From the NCBI GenBank assembly GCA_013178305.1, contig JABLXB010000008.1:124001-188000 (forward strand): a stretch of DNA of 64,000 bases, in the 5' to 3' direction. The translations under genes were made by a program, and so were the position numbers. This document shows positions 5,210 through 12,624 of this stretch, piece after piece. This stretch comes from Bacillota bacterium. GTDB taxonomy: Bacteria > Bacillota > Sulfobacillia > JABLXB01. The first letter of the stretch is position 1. Every line of letters starts with the position of its first letter. Below the pieces are notes generated by a model. It saw only the letters and a program-made list of their open reading frames with translations. It did not search any database and was not told the origin of the DNA.

Positions 5210-6337
5210 ATGGTCAGCCTGGTAATCGTCTCCCACAGTACCCGGGTTGCCGAAGGGGTACGCGAGCTCGCCGAGCAGGTGACCCGGGGCAGGGTCAGAG
5301 TGGTAGCCGCCGGGGCTGTCACAGGGACACCCCCGGGCACGTGCTACGATTCGGTCCGCAGGGCGCTGGAGACCGTCGCCAACGAGGACGGCGCACTGGT
5401 GCTGGTCGACCTGGGGAGTGCAATTCTCACGACGCAGATGGCGCTCGAGGATCTCCCCGCGGCAAGGCGTCGCCGTATCCTGCTGTGCGAAGCTCCCCTG
5501 GTAGAGGGGGCGGTTGCAGCCGCGGCCCTGCTTGCTGCTGGAGCTTCTGTCGAGGAGGCGGCGGCCGAGGCGCGGGGAGCGCTGATGCCCAAAATGGTCC
5601 AGATGGGCGTTGGTCCTGCTGCGGCGAGCGGGTGGACGCATAGACCCGACTGGGACGCGATGGCCATGGTGACGGTGACACACCCGCTCGGGTTGCATGC
5701 CGAGCCCGCAGGCCTCTTCGTCCAGGCGGCTTCGCGGTACCAATCCGACGTCCGGGTACACAACGTCACCCGCAATACGCGCTGGTTCAGCGCAAAGAGC
5801 ATGAACAACGTATCCCTTCTCAACGTCAGGCGCGGCCAGGAAATCGCGATTGCCGCAAGTGGACCGGATGCGGCGACAGCCGTTTCGACGCTCAAGCGCC
5901 TGGTGGAAAGCGACTTCGCAAGCGTCGACGCATCACCTCCCGCCAGCGCTGCCAGACCGCACTGCAGCTCACCCCACCCAGTCGGCCCCGGCCCGGGCGC
6001 CGCTGTGCGGGATGCCATCGCATTCGTCCAGGCTCACTATTCGAAACCTCTGACGACAGCCGGTGTCGCCGAGAGGGTGTTTTTCCATCCGCGTTACTTC
6101 TGTACCGTGTTCAAGGCATACACCGGTGTGTCGTTTGTCGAATACCTTACGCGGGTCCGCCTGGCCAGGGCCAGAGACCTGCTGACCCGCACCGACCTCG
6201 ACGTGTCCGACGTGGCGTCGAGGGTTGGTTTCAAGGACCCGAACTACTTCAGCCGCGTTTTCAAGCGGTCACAGGGGCTGTCCCCGCGGGAATTCAGGCG
6301 GCAGTACTGCGCCGGCCTGAATCCTCCCCCGGTGTGA
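5210..6337 (+). CDS. DhaM-like EIIA–HPr–AraC fusion regulator of the dihydroxyacetone kinase locus
   Basis: A 375-residue three-domain protein. Residues 1-125 are an EIIA-Man/DhaM domain with the phosphorylatable His9 in LVIVSHS. Residues 151-235 resemble HPr, with His163 in GLHAEPA; the usual Arg after the His-Ala is Glu165. Residues 263-366 are an AraC-type double helix-turn-helix (AGVAERVFFHPRYF, then VGFKDPNYFSRVFKRSQGLSP). It most likely senses PTS phosphorylation or dihydroxyacetone metabolism and controls dhaKLM, which begins 130 bases downstream. The EIIA and HPr parts are paralogous to the dhaM at 8178. ATG 5210 is where EIIA homology begins, after GGGGGG. Function as a regulator is inferred from domains and position. 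Confidence 0.85.
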   Translation: MVSLVIVSHSTRVAEGVRELAEQVTRGRVRVVAAGAVTGTPPGTCYDSVRRALETVANEDGALVLVDLGSAILTTQMALEDLPAARRRRILLCEAPLVEGAVAAAALLAAGASVEEAAAEARGALMPKMVQMGVGPAAASGWTHRPDWDAMAMVTVTHPLGLHAEPAGLFVQAASRYQSDVRVHNVTRNTRWFSAKSMNNVSLLNVRRGQEIAIAASGPDAATAVSTLKRLVESDFASVDASPPASAARPHCSSPHPVGPGPGAAVRDAIAFVQAHYSKPLTTAGVAERVFFHPRYFCTVFKAYTGVSFVEYLTRVRLARARDLLTRTDLDVSDVASRVGFKDPNYFSRVFKRSQGLSPREFRRQYCAGLNPPPV

Positions 6338-6467
6338 ACCCGGCTCCGTGAAGTCTATCCAGATGTGTCTGATTCCTGTTCAGAGGTTGACCCAGCCCGC
6401 TGGAGAAACACCTCCTCGACCGGGATACGCCCATGAGACATAACATTTGGAAAGGGAGGGTGTGGTC

Positions 6468-7469
6468 GTGAAGAAACTGATCAACAGGCCCGAGGATGTC
6501 GTCCGGGAAGAGCTGGAAGGTCTCGCGTTGGCCCATCCGGACCTCGTTAAGGTGCACTTCGACCCGAACTACGTGTACCGCGCGGACGCCCCGGTGCGCG
6601 GCAAGGTGGCCGTCATTTCAGGGGGCGGCAGCGGTCACGAACCGATGCACGGCGGGTTCGTCGGCCGGGGGATGCTGGACGCCGCCTGCCCTGGCGCCGT
6701 GTTTACGAGTCCAACGCCCGACCAGATGTACGAGGCTTCCAAGGCTGTGGACGGTGGCAAAGGCGTGCTGTTCATCGTCAAGAACTACAGCGGGGACATA
6801 ATGAACTTCGACATGGCGGCCGACCTCGCCCGCGGTGAAGGGATCGAGATCGAAAGCGTGATCATCAACGACGACGTGGCGGTCCAGGACAGCCTTTACA
6901 CCCAGGGGCGCCGGGGTGTTGGGACGACGGTGCTTGCTGAGAAGATATGCGGCGCCGCCGCGGAACGGGGCTATGACCTGGGCAAGGTGGCCGCGCTTTG
7001 CCGGAAGGTCAATGAAAACGGACGGAGTATGGGCATGGCCCTTACGTCCTGCACGGTGCCCCACGTGGGAAAACCGACATTCGAGATCGGCAATGACGAG
7101 ATGGAGATCGGCATAGGAATTCACGGGGAACCGGGCCGCCGGCGGATGAATCTGCAACCCGTAGACGAAATAGTGGAGATGCTCATCGAGCCGGTCATCG
7201 GGGACCTCCCGTTCAAGGCTGGCGACAACGTGCTGTTGTTCGTCAATTCGATGGGGGGTACCCCACTTGTCGAACTCTACGTTGTATACCGAAAGGCCCA
7301 TCAGATTTGCGCGAGCAAGGGCCTCAATGTGGTCCGGAACCTGGTAGGGCCGTATATCACCTCGCTCGAGATGGCGGGCACGTCGATTACCTTGCTGAAG
7401 ATGGATGAGGAGCTGCTCAGCCTGTGGGATGACCCCGTGAAGACCCCGGGGCTCAGGTGGGGTGTGTGA
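6468..7469 (+). CDS. dhaK: Dihydroxyacetone kinase subunit DhaK (PTS-dependent)
   Basis: A 333-residue substrate-binding subunit that holds dihydroxyacetone covalently on a His while DhaL-bound ADP/ATP supplies the phosphate. Visible are [16 protein letters not shown] (residues 51-66), KNYSGD with Asp110, and [10 protein letters not shown] with the hemiaminal His219. The start [11 protein letters not shown] matches the family. GTG 6468 follows AAAGGGAGGG. It is the first of three closely spaced genes dhaK-dhaL-dhaM encoding a PTS-type kinase. No clear sigma-A promoter is visible in the 130-base gap upstream, which would fit dependence on the AraC-type fusion next door. Confidence 0.95.
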
Positions 7470-7517: not shown

Positions 7518-8159
7518 ATGAACATCAGCCGGGATTCCGTACTGGACTGGCTCAAGGCGTGTGCGAGCATCCTGGAGGAAAGCAGGGATTACCTGACGGA
7601 GCTCGACTCTGCGATTGGCGACGCGGACCACGGCGCTAACATGGACAGGGGCTTTAAGGCCGTCTTGTCCAAACTGCCCGAGGTAGTCGCCAAAGACATC
7701 GGGAGCATCTTCAAGACTACCGGCATGGCTCTCGTCTCGACTGTCGGCGGGGCCGCCGGCCCCCTGTACGGGACGTTCTTCCTGCAGGCCGGAGTCGTCG
7801 CTGCGGGGAAAACGGAGCTCGCGCCCGGAGACTGGGTAGCCTCCCTCGACGCCGGCGTCAAGGGTGTGATCAACAGGGGCAAGGCCGGGCCGGGTGACAA
7901 GACGATGCTGGACGCGTTGCTCCCGGCACTCGAGGCCGCGCGCGCAGCCCTGGCCGGTGGAAAGACGCTTGAGCAGGTCCTCAGTGAATCCGCAGCTGCG
8001 GCTCGAAAAGGAGCGGAAGACACGATTCCCATCGTCGCGCGGCGCGGGCGCGCCAGTTACCTTGGAGAACGGTCCGCCGGCCACAGGGACCCCGGAGCCA
8101 CGTCCGCATCCATGATCCTTACCGCCGCGGCGGACGTTTTCGGAAAGGCGAAGGGGTAG
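7518..8159 (+). CDS. dhaL: Dihydroxyacetone kinase ADP-binding subunit DhaL
   Basis: A 213-residue subunit that carries the nucleotide. In the PTS form the ADP stays bound and is rephosphorylated by DhaM. The Mg-binding aspartates are present in ELDSAIGDADHGANMDRGF (Asp30, Asp35, Asp37). TVGGAAGPLYGTFF and GPGDKTMLDAL are family segments. An RGRASYLGERSAGHRDPGA stretch near the C-terminus is also typical. ATG 7518 follows GGGCGGGAGGG at 7502-7512. It lies 48 bases after dhaK and 18 bases before dhaM. Confidence 0.94.
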   Translation: MNISRDSVLDWLKACASILEESRDYLTELDSAIGDADHGANMDRGFKAVLSKLPEVVAKDIGSIFKTTGMALVSTVGGAAGPLYGTFFLQAGVVAAGKTELAPGDWVASLDAGVKGVINRGKAGPGDKTMLDALLPALEAARAALAGGKTLEQVLSESAAAARKGAEDTIPIVARRGRASYLGERSAGHRDPGATSASMILTAAADVFGKAKG

Positions 8160-8177: not shown

Positions 8178-8933
8178 ATGGTCGGGATCGTTATCGTTTC
8201 ACACTCTCACAAGCTGGCCCAGGGAGTCAAGGAACTCGCCGAACAGGTGGCGGGGGGCAAGGTCAATATCGCAACCGCCGGCGGCCTGGATGACAGCACC
8301 CTCGGAACCAGCGCCGAACGGGTGCTCCAGGCCGTTTCCGGAGCCTACGGCGACGACGGCGTGGTCATTCTCATGGACCTCGGCAGCGCAGTGATGACGG
8401 CGGAGGTCGCGGTCGAGATGCTACCCGCCGACAGGCAACGGCGCGTAGTCCTGTGTCCCGCCCCGCTTGTCGAGGGAGCAGTCGCGGCGGCCGCTCAGGC
8501 CGCCGCGGGCGCGTCGCTGGGTGAGGTCGATTCTGCTGCCCGCAGGGCGATGGAGCTCATGAAGCCGTCCGGCCGCGTGGCGGATTCCGGTGGTAGCTGT
8601 GGTCAGCCCGTCGTACCCGATAACCCGCCGCCGGCGTGTCCGGCGCTCGGGGGCCATGAAACAGCGCGGGTTCTCCTGACCTTGAGGAACCGGTATGGAC
8701 TGCACGCGCGCCCCGCGGCTGAATTCGTCCGGACCGCCTCCAGCTTTGAATCAGCGGTATTCGTGAGGAACCTGAGCAAGAGCGGCTCCGTCGCGAACGC
8801 CAAAAGCATAATCGAGGTGCTGACCCTGGGAGCCGAGTCGGGTCACACGATCGAGGTTTGGGCAGAGGGGCGGGATCAAGCCGCCGCGCTGGAGGCGCTG
8901 AGGGATGTGGTCGAATCGGGCGCTGGCGAGTAG
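8178..8933 (+). CDS. dhaM: PTS phosphoryl donor subunit DhaM (EIIA–HPr)
   Basis: A 251-residue protein with an N-terminal EIIA-Man-type domain (His9 in GIVIVSHSHKL) and a C-terminal HPr-like domain (His176 in GLHARPAAEF, with the normal Arg178). A Pro-rich linker lies between them. It passes phosphate from PEP:PTS enzyme I to DhaL-bound ADP. There is no enzyme I-like domain as in E. coli DhaM, so a general enzyme I elsewhere in the genome is required. It closes the dhaKLM operon. The convergent moaD-like gene ends 30 bases further on. Confidence 0.92.
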   Translation: MVGIVIVSHSHKLAQGVKELAEQVAGGKVNIATAGGLDDSTLGTSAERVLQAVSGAYGDDGVVILMDLGSAVMTAEVAVEMLPADRQRRVVLCPAPLVEGAVAAAAQAAAGASLGEVDSAARRAMELMKPSGRVADSGGSCGQPVVPDNPPPACPALGGHETARVLLTLRNRYGLHARPAAEFVRTASSFESAVFVRNLSKSGSVANAKSIIEVLTLGAESGHTIEVWAEGRDQAAALEALRDVVESGAGE

Positions 8934-8962: not shown

Positions 8963-9226
8963 TCAGCCGCCCATAACGGGGGCGAGAAGGACAATCTCAT
9001 CGCCGTCGTGCAGGATGTCCGCGGGTCCGAGGGTCCTGCCTGACCGCGAAACCCAGACGGTGTGCCCGTCGCCGAGCCCGGCCGACATCCCGCGGAGGTC
9101 TGGATAGGCGACCTCCAGGTTGATCAGGAGATCCTTGACGGTTGTTCCTTCACCGAACGTCAGGATTTCCTGTGTTTTTCCCGCCAGATCCTGATAGGGT
9201 GGGAAGAAACGGACTCTCACGTTCAC
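8963..9226 (-). CDS. MoaD/ThiS-family ubiquitin-fold sulfur carrier
   Basis: An 87-residue beta-grasp protein ending in Met-Gly-Gly, the C-terminal diglycine that is adenylated and thiocarboxylated in MoaD. It opens with VNVRVRFFPPYQDLAGK and has a late DEIVLLAPVMGG. The GTG at 9226 is chosen because a GGAGG (complement of 9235-9239) sits eight bases upstream. No other pterin gene is nearby. A tungsten-type AOR is encoded 8 kb away and would need such a carrier for its pterin cofactor, so that link is plausible but inferred. Confidence 0.8.
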   Translation of the reverse strand: MNVRVRFFPPYQDLAGKTQEILTFGEGTTVKDLLINLEVAYPDLRGMSAGLGDGHTVWVSRSGRTLGPADILHDGDEIVLLAPVMGG

Positions 9227-9261
9227 CAAGACACCCTCCGCACTGCTCTGTACATCAAATA

Positions 9262-9292
9262 GCCCCCGGCCGGATAAGCACCGGCCGGGGGC
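9262..9292 (-). terminator. GC-rich hairpin after the M28-like gene
   Basis: A perfect 12-bp stem, GCCCCCGGCCGG at 9262-9273 pairing with 9281-9292, closes a 7-base loop. Read on the minus strand it is followed by only a short TATTT, so termination may be partial. It lies between the M28-like gene and the moaD-like gene. Confidence 0.55.
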
Positions 9293-9312
9293 GCAGGAAT
9301 GCGACACTCCCG

Positions 9313-11025
9313 CTACACTCCGGCCCGCTCAAGCGCCTGGACGGCTTCGGTTAAATACAGTATAAATCGGTTTCGCCTGCGCAGGTAGATGGGGTACAGC
9401 AGGTTGAACTCATCACCTTCGGCAGAGGCCAGTCTCTCGGCGCCGTCGAACATCGGGAATGCGGGGATTGCCCCAAAGAAGTCCGGGTCCGTGCGTTCGT
9501 TCTCCTTGAACGCGCAAGGTACCAGCGCTAGCGAGAGTTCACGCAAGACCCTGTTTGCCTTTGGCGGCTCTATCTCGCCTCTTCCGAGCACCTCGTAGAA
9601 CCTTTCAGTCGTCCGCGCAACCTCCGACAGCCTCGCCCTGGCCGGCTCCAGGTCGAGCCGCTGGCCGACGGATCTCGACAGCAGGTCGAGCTGCTCCGAG
9701 ATGTAGCGGCAGAGCGCGCGGAAATCGTAAGGAAGGTAGCGACACGAAAGCAGCCTGTATACCGTCGCCATGTATATCCTGGTGTCGCGGAGCAGGTTGT
9801 CCGGATCGATTTTGTCAATCGTGTCGAACTCCGTGTGCCACCACCAGCCCAGGCCGCCGCTGAGTTTCCCCCCGGTATGGAAACCCACGCCCTCGCTGCC
9901 GGGGTCCCTTGGTTGCTCCGAGAACGTGGCGAACGTACTTGTCAGTCCAATGCCGTAGAACGACTGGTCACCGAAACGGCCGATCCGCTTGCCGGCGAGA
10001 TTGCGCCCCGTGACTTTCTTGAGGGCCGCCGCCGCAAGGCCGAACGATTGCGGCATGATGGGGATCTCCTCAAGGACGGAGGCCCCCCTGCCCCCCGTGG
10101 AGTCGGCGTTCACGTGGCCAAGGCACCTGTCGAGGAGCTCCGTCCAGTAGTGATCCGCGTACCAGGCCGAGCCGGCGAACCTGCCATGGGAGTGGCCCGA
10201 CCAGAAGGCCAGCCTCAACCCGCGCCGCAGGCTACTCCTGTGCTCGGCGGCCAGCCTGGCGACCTCCATGACAGTCGCATTCGCGGCGCCGTTATCCATC
10301 GCTCCGTAATGCCACGAGTCAATGTGGCTGCTGAAGAGCAGGAATTCCCCTTCCTCGCGCCCATCGATGTCCGCTATGAGCAGCGGGAGCTGTCTCCAGC
10401 CGGTGTCCACCGCCGTGTGAATTCGTACCTGGACCGGGCCGCGCGCAATGGCGTTTTTCAAGTAATCGCCACCCTGACACGTCACCGTGATGCTGGGGGT
10501 GACCGGAAGCATGCCGAGGGTGTCCCTTGTAGGTGGTCCCCACAGTGGGGAGACGGCCGACTCATGCAGATAATCGTCGCTGACGAATATTTCCCCGATG
10601 GCTCCCCCGGCCTCCATCTCCAGGCATGCCTTGGACGAGGCCATGCCGTCCACGAGGACGATCTTCCCCCGTACGCAGTCTCCCTTCTTCGGATAGATCA
10701 GCTCTCCCGACAGTCCCGATTTCGCGGTGGATTTCGCAAACGAGTGGGTGATGCACTTAAACTGAGCCTGAGGATCGGATGGAATCGTTAACGAAGCGCT
10801 GACCGGGAGACTGATGAATGCGGGATGGCGCAGCAGTTCCGTTCGGTAGCCGAACGACTTGAGGATCCCGTTCACGTAGTTCATGGCCTCGGCTTCGCCC
10901 GTGGCTCCGGACAGGCGCACCCACGTAGCGATCTTCCCGGTCCACTCCATGAGATTATCTCGTGATACTTCCGACAGCAACACGTCTTCGAGCACCTGAT
11001 CATAATCGAGATGATGGTCAGCCAT
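9313..11025 (-). CDS. M28-like peptidase with altered active site
   Basis: A 570-residue protein with a PA-like insert (about residues 85-205) and a zinc-peptidase M28 fold. The first ligands are present: SSHIDSWHYGAMDNGAAN (His234, Asp244). HVNADSTGG gives Asp308, and WWWHTEFDTIDKID a late His. The segment that in M28 enzymes reads SGEE, with the catalytic Glu and a metal-binding Glu, here reads WSGHSHGRFAGS (His278-Ser-His280). It may bind metal differently or not be a classical peptidase. No signal peptide is evident. ATG 11025 follows AGGAGGG. It lies downstream of the sigma-54 activator on the same strand, after a 177-base gap. Confidence 0.75.
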   Translation of the reverse strand: MADHHLDYDQVLEDVLLSEVSRDNLMEWTGKIATWVRLSGATGEAEAMNYVNGILKSFGYRTELLRHPAFISLPVSASLTIPSDPQAQFKCITHSFAKSTAKSGLSGELIYPKKGDCVRGKIVLVDGMASSKACLEMEAGGAIGEIFVSDDYLHESAVSPLWGPPTRDTLGMLPVTPSITVTCQGGDYLKNAIARGPVQVRIHTAVDTGWRQLPLLIADIDGREEGEFLLFSSHIDSWHYGAMDNGAANATVMEVARLAAEHRSSLRRGLRLAFWSGHSHGRFAGSAWYADHYWTELLDRCLGHVNADSTGGRGASVLEEIPIMPQSFGLAAAALKKVTGRNLAGKRIGRFGDQSFYGIGLTSTFATFSEQPRDPGSEGVGFHTGGKLSGGLGWWWHTEFDTIDKIDPDNLLRDTRIYMATVYRLLSCRYLPYDFRALCRYISEQLDLLSRSVGQRLDLEPARARLSEVARTTERFYEVLGRGEIEPPKANRVLRELSLALVPCAFKENERTDPDFFGAIPAFPMFDGAERLASAEGDEFNLLYPIYLRRRNRFILYLTEAVQALERAGV

Positions 11026-11202
11026 TCGCCGTGCACCCTCCTAGCGTTCTAATGCCGTCCCACCACCTCGTCACGCACTGGCGTGAGTGCGGACACCAGA
11101 TTGTGGTGCCCTGTCACTGGGCAGAGGGATCGTCAACCAACGGGGATCTCGAAAGCAAGCGCCATGCCAGCGCTCGCCGGCCGGTGGGGTGAGGGATGGT
11201 CG

Positions 11203-12624
11203 TCAGTCTGCGAGGGAATATGCACGTGAACGGCCCTGACCGGAGGCCCTCAGGACCCTCTGGTCGACGAGCTGGGACAGATCTCTAAATGCAGTGGTCC
11301 GGTCGACATTAGTCAGCTTACAGTACTCACGATTCGTTATCATACGATGTTCTCTCAGGTAGGAGAGCAACAGGGACCTGCGCGACAGGAACCCGGCAGC
11401 GGAGATTCTGGCCACGATCCGCGCCGGCAGGTCGATCTTGCGGATCATTCCCGCCCGGCACTGGTAGGCGGAGCTCAGCACGACGCTACGCAGTTCCCGC
11501 ACGTTTCCCGGCCAGGCGTAAGACTGCAGGACCGCCAGGGCGCACGGGCTCACTGTCACGGTTCTGCCCGCCTTCTCTCGAAATTCGCTGGTAAAATGGG
11601 CGATCAGTGAGGGGATATCCTCCTTGCGGTCCCTGAGTGGCGGCACCTGGAGTTCCGCCACGCTGAGCCTGTAGAACAGATCGGACCTGAACTTCCCCTG
11701 GCGGCACAGATCCTCGATTGACCTGTTTGTTGCAGCGATTAGGCGAATGTTCAGGCGTCGCTCGGTGACCGAGCCGACTCGCCTGAGTACGCCGTCCTCT
11801 ATCACCCTGAGCAGCCTCGGCTGGAACTCCAGCGGCATATCCCCGATTTCGTCGAGGAACAACGTCCCTCCGTCCGCGGACTCGATTAGTCCGGCCTTTC
11901 CTCCACGCCTGGAGCCGGTAAACGAGCCGTCTTCGTAGCCGAAGAGTTCGCTGTCAATAAGCCCCTCGGGAAAGGCCGAACAGTTCACCGCCACAAACGC
12001 GCCGCCGGACCGGGGGCTGATCTCGTGAATGGCCCTGGCGAGGAGGTCCTTACCGGTTCCCGTCTCTCCAGTAATAAGTACCGGAAGGTCGGTTGTGGCG
12101 ATGACGCTGGCCTTTGCCTTCAGTTGCGCCATCAGGCGGCTCTCTCCAACTATGCTGTCGAAGCGATGGAGCGATTCGTCGGGCTCGAGATCGGAGGGCT
12201 CGGTGTACCCTACGCGGTCGATTACGCTGATATCCTTCGCCATCATGATGGTTCCCAAGAGGGTATCGTCCCGCATTACGGGCCGGATCTCCACCATGTA
12301 TTGCCTGCCGTCCTGTCTCTGAGAGAGGCCGAAGACCGCCTTCTTTGTGCGCAGAACCTCGCAGATCTTCGACGGCGGGGAGAAATTCCGGACGTTACAG
12401 CCGAGGAGTTCAGCTTTCGTAATGCCCCTCATTTTGATGAATGCTTCATTGGCCATTATGATGTTTCCCTCGCCGTCCGTGACCATGACGGGGTCGTTCA
12501 GCAGGTCAAAGAATGCCTTAGCCCATTCGGCGTCGCTGAGATGTGTGGATATGAAATCATCGATCTCTTCAACCCACAGGTACTGCCCGATGACCCTTCG
12601 GCCGGGGATTACCATGTCCGACAC
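11203..12624 (-). CDS. Sigma-54-dependent transcriptional activator (PAS–AAA+–winged helix)
   Basis: A 473-residue protein. A PAS domain lies at about 37-133 (FDLLNDPVMVTDGEGNIIMA) and the AAA+ module at 155-390, with Walker A GETGTGK (186-192) and Walker B GGTLFLDEIGD. The sigma-54 contact loop reads GSFTGS (233-238) rather than GAFTGA. The C-terminal 60 residues do not look like the usual Fis helix-turn-helix. They resemble a winged helix (TNREYCKLTNVDRTTAFRDL). GTG 12624 has GAGGT eight bases upstream. It diverges from the operon at 12900, whose upstream region holds a -24/-12 element, so it probably activates that operon on sensing a substrate through PAS. Confidence 0.9.
   Translation of the reverse strand: MSDMVIPGRRVIGQYLWVEEIDDFISTHLSDAEWAKAFFDLLNDPVMVTDGEGNIIMANEAFIKMRGITKAELLGCNVRNFSPPSKICEVLRTKKAVFGLSQRQDGRQYMVEIRPVMRDDTLLGTIMMAKDISVIDRVGYTEPSDLEPDESLHRFDSIVGESRLMAQLKAKASVIATTDLPVLITGETGTGKDLLARAIHEISPRSGGAFVAVNCSAFPEGLIDSELFGYEDGSFTGSRRGGKAGLIESADGGTLFLDEIGDMPLEFQPRLLRVIEDGVLRRVGSVTERRLNIRLIAATNRSIEDLCRQGKFRSDLFYRLSVAELQVPPLRDRKEDIPSLIAHFTSEFREKAGRTVTVSPCALAVLQSYAWPGNVRELRSVVLSSAYQCRAGMIRKIDLPARIVARISAAGFLSRRSLLLSYLREHRMITNREYCKLTNVDRTTAFRDLSQLVDQRVLRASGQGRSRAYSLAD

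Follow-up and report, generated by a model that had tools for sequence, protein, structure and literature searches.

What does a protein do that joins two domains of the type found in DhaM, a subunit of dihydroxyacetone (DHA) kinase, to an AraC-type DNA-binding domain, and that is encoded directly before the genes of that kinase? The window, by which we mean the whole 64,000-nucleotide stretch of DNA analysed here, contains one such gene, and a second fusion was found in another genome (G058, described below). We propose, with a probability of about 0.6, that the encoded protein locally regulates transcription of the DHA kinase genes and takes PTS phosphate as its input, a reading drawn from sequence comparison and from analogy with characterised systems. 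The fusion would then probably be a one-piece switch, in which the kinase's own phosphate supply controls the kinase genes.

Domains of the fusion and its place before dhaKLM

The features that define the locus are as follows.

5210..6337, + strand: fusion gene EIIA-Man - HPr - AraC, one uninterrupted frame of 375 amino acids
5219..5560, + strand: EIIA-Man (DhaM-type) domain, residues 4-117 (Pfam PF03610, 1.5e-23)
5234..5236, + strand: His9, predicted phosphorylation site, invariant in the EIIA alignment and kept in both fusions
5408..5410, + strand: Asp67 in a DLGSA motif, invariant in the EIIA alignment and conserved with DhaM
5669..5908, + strand: HPr-like domain, residues 154-233 (Pfam PF00381, 4.3e-22; HPr fold match 3le1)
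5696..5704, + strand: His163-Ala-Glu165, the HPr site (GLHAEPA), with Glu replacing the usual Arg (alignment)
6068..6304, + strand: AraC-type DNA-binding domain (HTH_18), residues 287-365 (Pfam, 3.4e-24)
6468..7469, + strand: dhaK, predicted GTG start with GGGAGG upstream (TIGR02363, 494.8 bits)
about 7518..8159, + strand: dhaL (TIGR02365, 239.6 bits)
8178..8933, + strand: dhaM, EIIA-HPr, GLHARPA (TIGR02364, 135.9 bits)

A first-pass annotation, made from the letters alone, had placed an EIIA-Man domain with His9, an HPr domain and an AraC domain in one protein next to dhaKLM, whose DhaM has the same EIIA-HPr layout. Both statements hold: the three domains share one frame with Pfam E-values all below 1e-21, and dhaK, dhaL and dhaM each match their NCBIfam models. 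The EIIA part is of DhaM type, since it scores 104.2 bits against TIGR02364 (NCBIfam cut-off 98.25), and its solved-structure matches are DhaM 3cr3 and 3ct6. Against the full-length DhaM equivalog NF008478 the fusion reaches 171 bits, below the cut-off of 520, and the two-domain DhaM of the window likewise stays below it (162 bits). The C-terminus covers positions 2-80 of the 80 in the HTH_18 profile, which corresponds to a two-HTH AraC domain; its fold matches are 6swi (AraT), 3lsg (YesN) and 2k9s, where AraT and YesN are response regulators matched by their DNA-binding parts. No Pfam match to PRD, EIIB-Gat, sigma-54 AAA+ or Response_reg domains was found in the fusion. The AlphaFold model, for which the window and locus sequences were the input, has three confident domains (mean pLDDT 87.8) and loose linkers at about 132-149 and 240-260. 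Third-codon-position GC is even over the three domains and both linkers (0.73-0.77).

Directly downstream, in the same orientation, come dhaK, dhaL and dhaM, with 130 bp separating the fusion from dhaK. Upstream, in L063:1265-15449, which overlaps the start of the window, glycerol genes are followed by gap-pgk-tpi-gpmI-eno and a membrane pyrophosphatase. The order on this contig is gpsA-like, membrane protein, glpK, FAD protein 1 (glycerol-3-phosphate oxidase/dehydrogenase-like), FAD protein 2 and a GlpP-like protein (named by sequence, without a family match); then gap, pgk, tpi, gpmI, eno, the membrane pyrophosphatase, a thioesterase, an HD protein, the fusion and dhaKLM. The genome carries an HPr-EI gene pair on another contig, so PTS phosphate can be supplied. 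It also has at least one PTS permease: an EIIBC gene at L101:4080-8407 (-) adjoins a MurQ-like gene and a GntR-type regulator, so its PTS serves a sugar permease too.

A second fusion and the origin of the two halves

A protein with these three domains is also found in G058, a genome of another family within the class, at C31:46627-47880 (-); the two proteins are 52% identical over the whole length. Since the two genomes are independent, the fusion is real. The idea that the AraC part is always a separate gene in homologues, so that the protein here would be an assembly chimera or a frameshift joining of dhaM and araC, is contradicted by this one-frame copy; nothing was found in its favour, and we reject it as extremely improbable. 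The G058 fusion is followed, after a gap of 208 bp, by glpF, dhaK, dhaL, glpK and glpA. Thus, the architecture search that the first-pass annotation had recommended, together with a check of dhaKLM linkage, ties the fusion to dha/glycerol genes twice. Further on, G058 has a separate DhaM-HPr-EI gene pair (L060:2696-5984 (-)), a DhaM-HPr with partial EI and then an overlapping EI-type gene; DhaM-HPr-EI is complete in a single frame in G003 (L061:7993-10638) and G146 (L097:4574-7957).

The fusion is rare, present in 2 of 154 genomes of the class (39 of these have dhaK) and in 0 of about 790 others sampled. A sample of 398 genomes from the phylum contained none (the window's own genome excluded from the count), and 393 genomes from the phylum to which a Sphaerochaeta locus belongs gave no fusion but DhaM-HPr-EI proteins and one AraC match. 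The window's genome is in the same phylum as Virgibacillus. No plasmid record covered 80% of the fusion, and a scan of genome contigs, a weak test because it used exact peptide seeds of one sequence, returned 34 loci, all with the AraC domain alone. G046, from the genus of G058, has a 67-residue frame at L095:8018-8221 (-) whose first 42 residues are fusion-type EIIA, followed by unrelated sequence. No dhaK was found in G046, and the EIIA piece is apparently a relic, a decayed copy.

The suggestion that a duplicated DhaM had been turned into a sensor stands in part. The protein does look like a regulator built from DhaM parts, is linked to dha genes and has lost the HPr Arg, but it is not a copy of the adjacent dhaM. 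In an EIIA-HPr tree, a small one of nine rows, both fusions form one clade (support 100/99), and the neighbouring DhaM of the window groups apart from them with the DhaM of G058 and of G019. Identity between the fusion and the neighbouring DhaM is 43%; the highest value for the fusion EIIA-HPr part, 51%, is to DhaM-HPr-EI proteins such as that of G003. Tree and identities rule out a recent tandem duplicate of the adjacent dhaM, and by these comparisons the fusion EIIA-HPr is its own old branch. The EIIA-HPr parts of the two fusions have themselves diverged to about 60% identity.

The AraC domains of both fusions also form one clade (support 99/98). Both parts being monophyletic, a single old fusion event accounts for the two proteins. 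Judged by domain matches, the nearest AraC relatives are mostly YesN-type response regulators (REC-GGDEF_2-AraC): GGDEF_2 was matched in all ten nearest relatives and a receiver in nine (eight at 90 bits or more, one weak), the receiver being missing from the 393-aa frame of L074. The DhaM module therefore occupies the place of their receiver.

The HPr site and a candidate operator

The first-pass annotation had pointed to GLHAEPA, with Glu165, in the fusion as against GLHARPA in the true DhaM, and alignment confirms the difference. The G058 fusion reads GLHAMAA. In each of ten distinct DhaM-HPr proteins (those of the window, G058, G003, G019, G146 and Klebsiella, plus four from the Sphaerochaeta-phylum search) the second residue after the active His is Arg, whereas it is Glu in one fusion and Met in the other. 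The HPr His, EIIA His9 and Asp67 are retained in both fusions. An altered HPr carrier beside an intact EIIA is the simplest reading of this pattern, although a pair of sequences is a small sample. That the fusion cannot pass phosphate normally, as had been proposed, is an inference. Its HPr part is more likely a remnant kept for structure or docking than a functional phosphate carrier. In LevR, the EIIA-Man domain is phosphorylated and stimulated by HPr~P, and His mutations in the EIIA-Man domain of CelR lower its activity (PMC10864463). With such PTS phosphorylation established, and with the histidines and Asp67 kept, His9 of the fusion may well be phosphorylated.

The strongest rival dispenses with this step. 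A DhaM-like decoy would dock DhaL (or DhaK), and binding, in place of its own phosphorylation, would set the activity of the AraC domain. Loss of the HPr Arg in both fusions is consistent with such a contact sensor, as are the resemblance of the EIIA part to the DhaM of the solved DhaM-DhaL complex 3cr3 and the control of E. coli DhaR by DhaK and DhaL binding (PMC12821955). However, His9, Asp67 and His163 are all retained in both fusions despite the ~60% identity of their EIIA-HPr parts. We consider docking of this kind possible, though not probable.

The region 6338-6467, which the first-pass annotation had singled out for DNA-binding tests, proved a good guess, as it contains a conserved direct repeat.

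6354..6384, + strand: candidate operator, direct repeat TCTATCCAGA-N11-CCTGTTCAGA with a 21 bp period, conserved at L060:13552-13582(-)

The conserved pattern is YCTRTNYAGA-N11-YCTRTNYAGA, at the equivalent place in G058 (the fusion-glpF gap); the two gaps, 130 bp in the window and 208 bp in G058, have TCTRTCCAGA-N11-CCTGTWYAGAGGT in common. The half-sites of araI are also spaced by 21 bp, and from its sequence the direct repeat is a likely, though not certain, AraC-type site. The half-site is nearly palindromic, so some other protein could bind the candidate operator. In two aligned segments the gaps agree at 23/34 and at 27/42 bases, values reached by 12/2000 and 4/2000 pairs of dinucleotide shuffles, respectively. 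Of six segment lengths, the two shortest were not notable; at 34-46 bases, 4-12 of the 2000 shuffles match the observed likeness. Stretches of 16 and 20 bases common to the gaps do not by themselves exceed shuffles; only the longer aligned segment does. Conservation of the repeat rests on two sequences, those of the two full fusions. The pattern, which was derived from these same two sites, has one perfect match per whole genome in both the window's genome and G058, and one more site in the window's genome when two mismatches are allowed. With up to three mismatches it was not found at 28 other dhaK loci of the class (about 1.5 kb of flank each). Most dha operons of the class are without the fusion and without the repeat, so neither is needed for dha function. 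An RNA element in place of a protein site was rejected: the two repeat regions have no stable fold in common (z 0.75 and -1.13) and no Rfam match. Nothing resembling a sigma-70 promoter was seen in the 130 bp that separate the fusion from dhaK.

The repeat also bears on whether the fusion is simply a working second DhaM, its EIIA-HPr part mainly feeding DhaL and its AraC domain being incidental or serving other genes. The intact EIIA residues would permit this; however, both genomes already have a separate DhaM with the full HPr motif, the fusion has lost the HPr Arg, and the repeat, which adjoins the dha genes, is matched perfectly only once in each of the two genomes. We regard a second DhaM as improbable.

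Slightly less probable still is that the dha operon is under the DhaR-like sigma-54 PAS activator encoded at 11203-12624(-), with the fusion acting elsewhere. The activator combines a PAS domain with a sigma-54 activation domain and matches the DhaR model below its cut-off (220 of 551 bits), and in G012 a related sigma-54 activator lies directly upstream of dhaK. Yet a search for a sigma-54 promoter upstream of dhaK gave no -24/-12 match, and the perfect -24/-12 site sits between the activator and the peptidase gene facing it. This site, TGGCATGGCGCTTGCT at 11154-11169 (-), is the only perfect one in the window and separates the activator gene from an M28-type peptidase gene (9313-11025 (-)), after which comes a ThiS-like gene (8963-9307 (-)). 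The G012 activator (L112:33-1343) is PrdR/NifA-like, which means that not all members of the class have the same kind of dha regulator; at other loci, the gene before dhaK is glpF or glpK.

Proposed mechanism and comparison with known systems

In its specific form the regulator would be a one-component, PTS-fed counterpart of a response regulator: a DhaM module replaces the YesN-type receiver, phosphate flux towards dihydroxyacetone is read on His9, HPr is degenerate, and this flux directly sets AraC binding to the repeat upstream of dhaK. We hold the chances of this full scheme to be about even. EIIA-Man proteins dimerise, and the EIIA part could pair the fusion into a dimer whose two AraC domains then bind the repeat. 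Phosphate would reach His9 from HPr~P or through equilibration with DhaL. Consumption of DHA would drain phosphate via DhaM and DhaL to DHA and leave His9 dephosphorylated, which would switch the AraC domain to activate dhaKLM. In E. coli and Klebsiella, DhaR is held inactive by DhaK and activated by dephosphorylated DhaL, which DhaM rephosphorylates (PMC12821955). Applied to the fusion, this logic would have DHA draw off its phosphate and so switch on the operon; this sign, phosphate as off, is modelled on E. coli DhaR, and of all the steps we are least sure of it.

Two routes by which the PTS controls transcription are already known, PRD-type regulators and contacts between proteins. With a DhaM module fused directly to an AraC domain there would be another, very compact one: the phosphate donor of an enzyme would act as sensor for its own operon, and a phospho-His input would have taken the place of a phospho-Asp receiver on one class of DNA-binding domain. 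Given the conserved repeat, one protein and a DNA of 31 bp would be enough to test the idea. The first-pass annotation knew of no described example; likewise, the open-access literature searched gave no description of the EIIA-HPr-AraC combination, of where it is placed or of its candidate site. The parts are each known, as are regulators with PTS domains, and the novelty is the combination.

With DhaM, which donates phosphoryl groups in the PEP-dependent DHA kinase, the fusion has in common the EIIA-Man and HPr layout, His9, Asp67, the HPr His and linkage to dhaKL, but it carries an AraC domain where some DhaM have a C-terminal EI-like part, has lost the HPr Arg and is not the protein most closely related to the neighbouring DhaM. 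In the DhaR system of E. coli and Klebsiella, parts of the DHA kinase also control the dha operon; there, kinase subunits bind a separate sigma-54 activator, whereas the fusion has its DhaM-like module built in. DhaS/DhaQ of Lactococcus, in which DhaS is of TetR type and the DhaK homologue DhaQ is the sensor, likewise uses a DHA kinase homologue to regulate dha genes, but in two proteins. LevR and CelR, too, are transcription regulators that contain an EIIA-Man domain, and a His in it can accept phosphate from the PTS, as predicted for the fusion. Unlike LevR-type proteins as defined in PMC10864463, the fusion is without PRD, EIIB-Gat and sigma-54 AAA+ domains, and it differs also in its AraC-type DNA binding, its HPr domain and its EIIA, which is of DhaM rather than mannose-PTS type. 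Finally, YesN-type regulators (REC-GGDEF_2-AraC) have the AraC DNA-binding domains closest to that of the fusion, but where they carry a phospho-Asp receiver and GGDEF_2, the fusion has a PTS module that is predicted to be phosphorylated on histidine.
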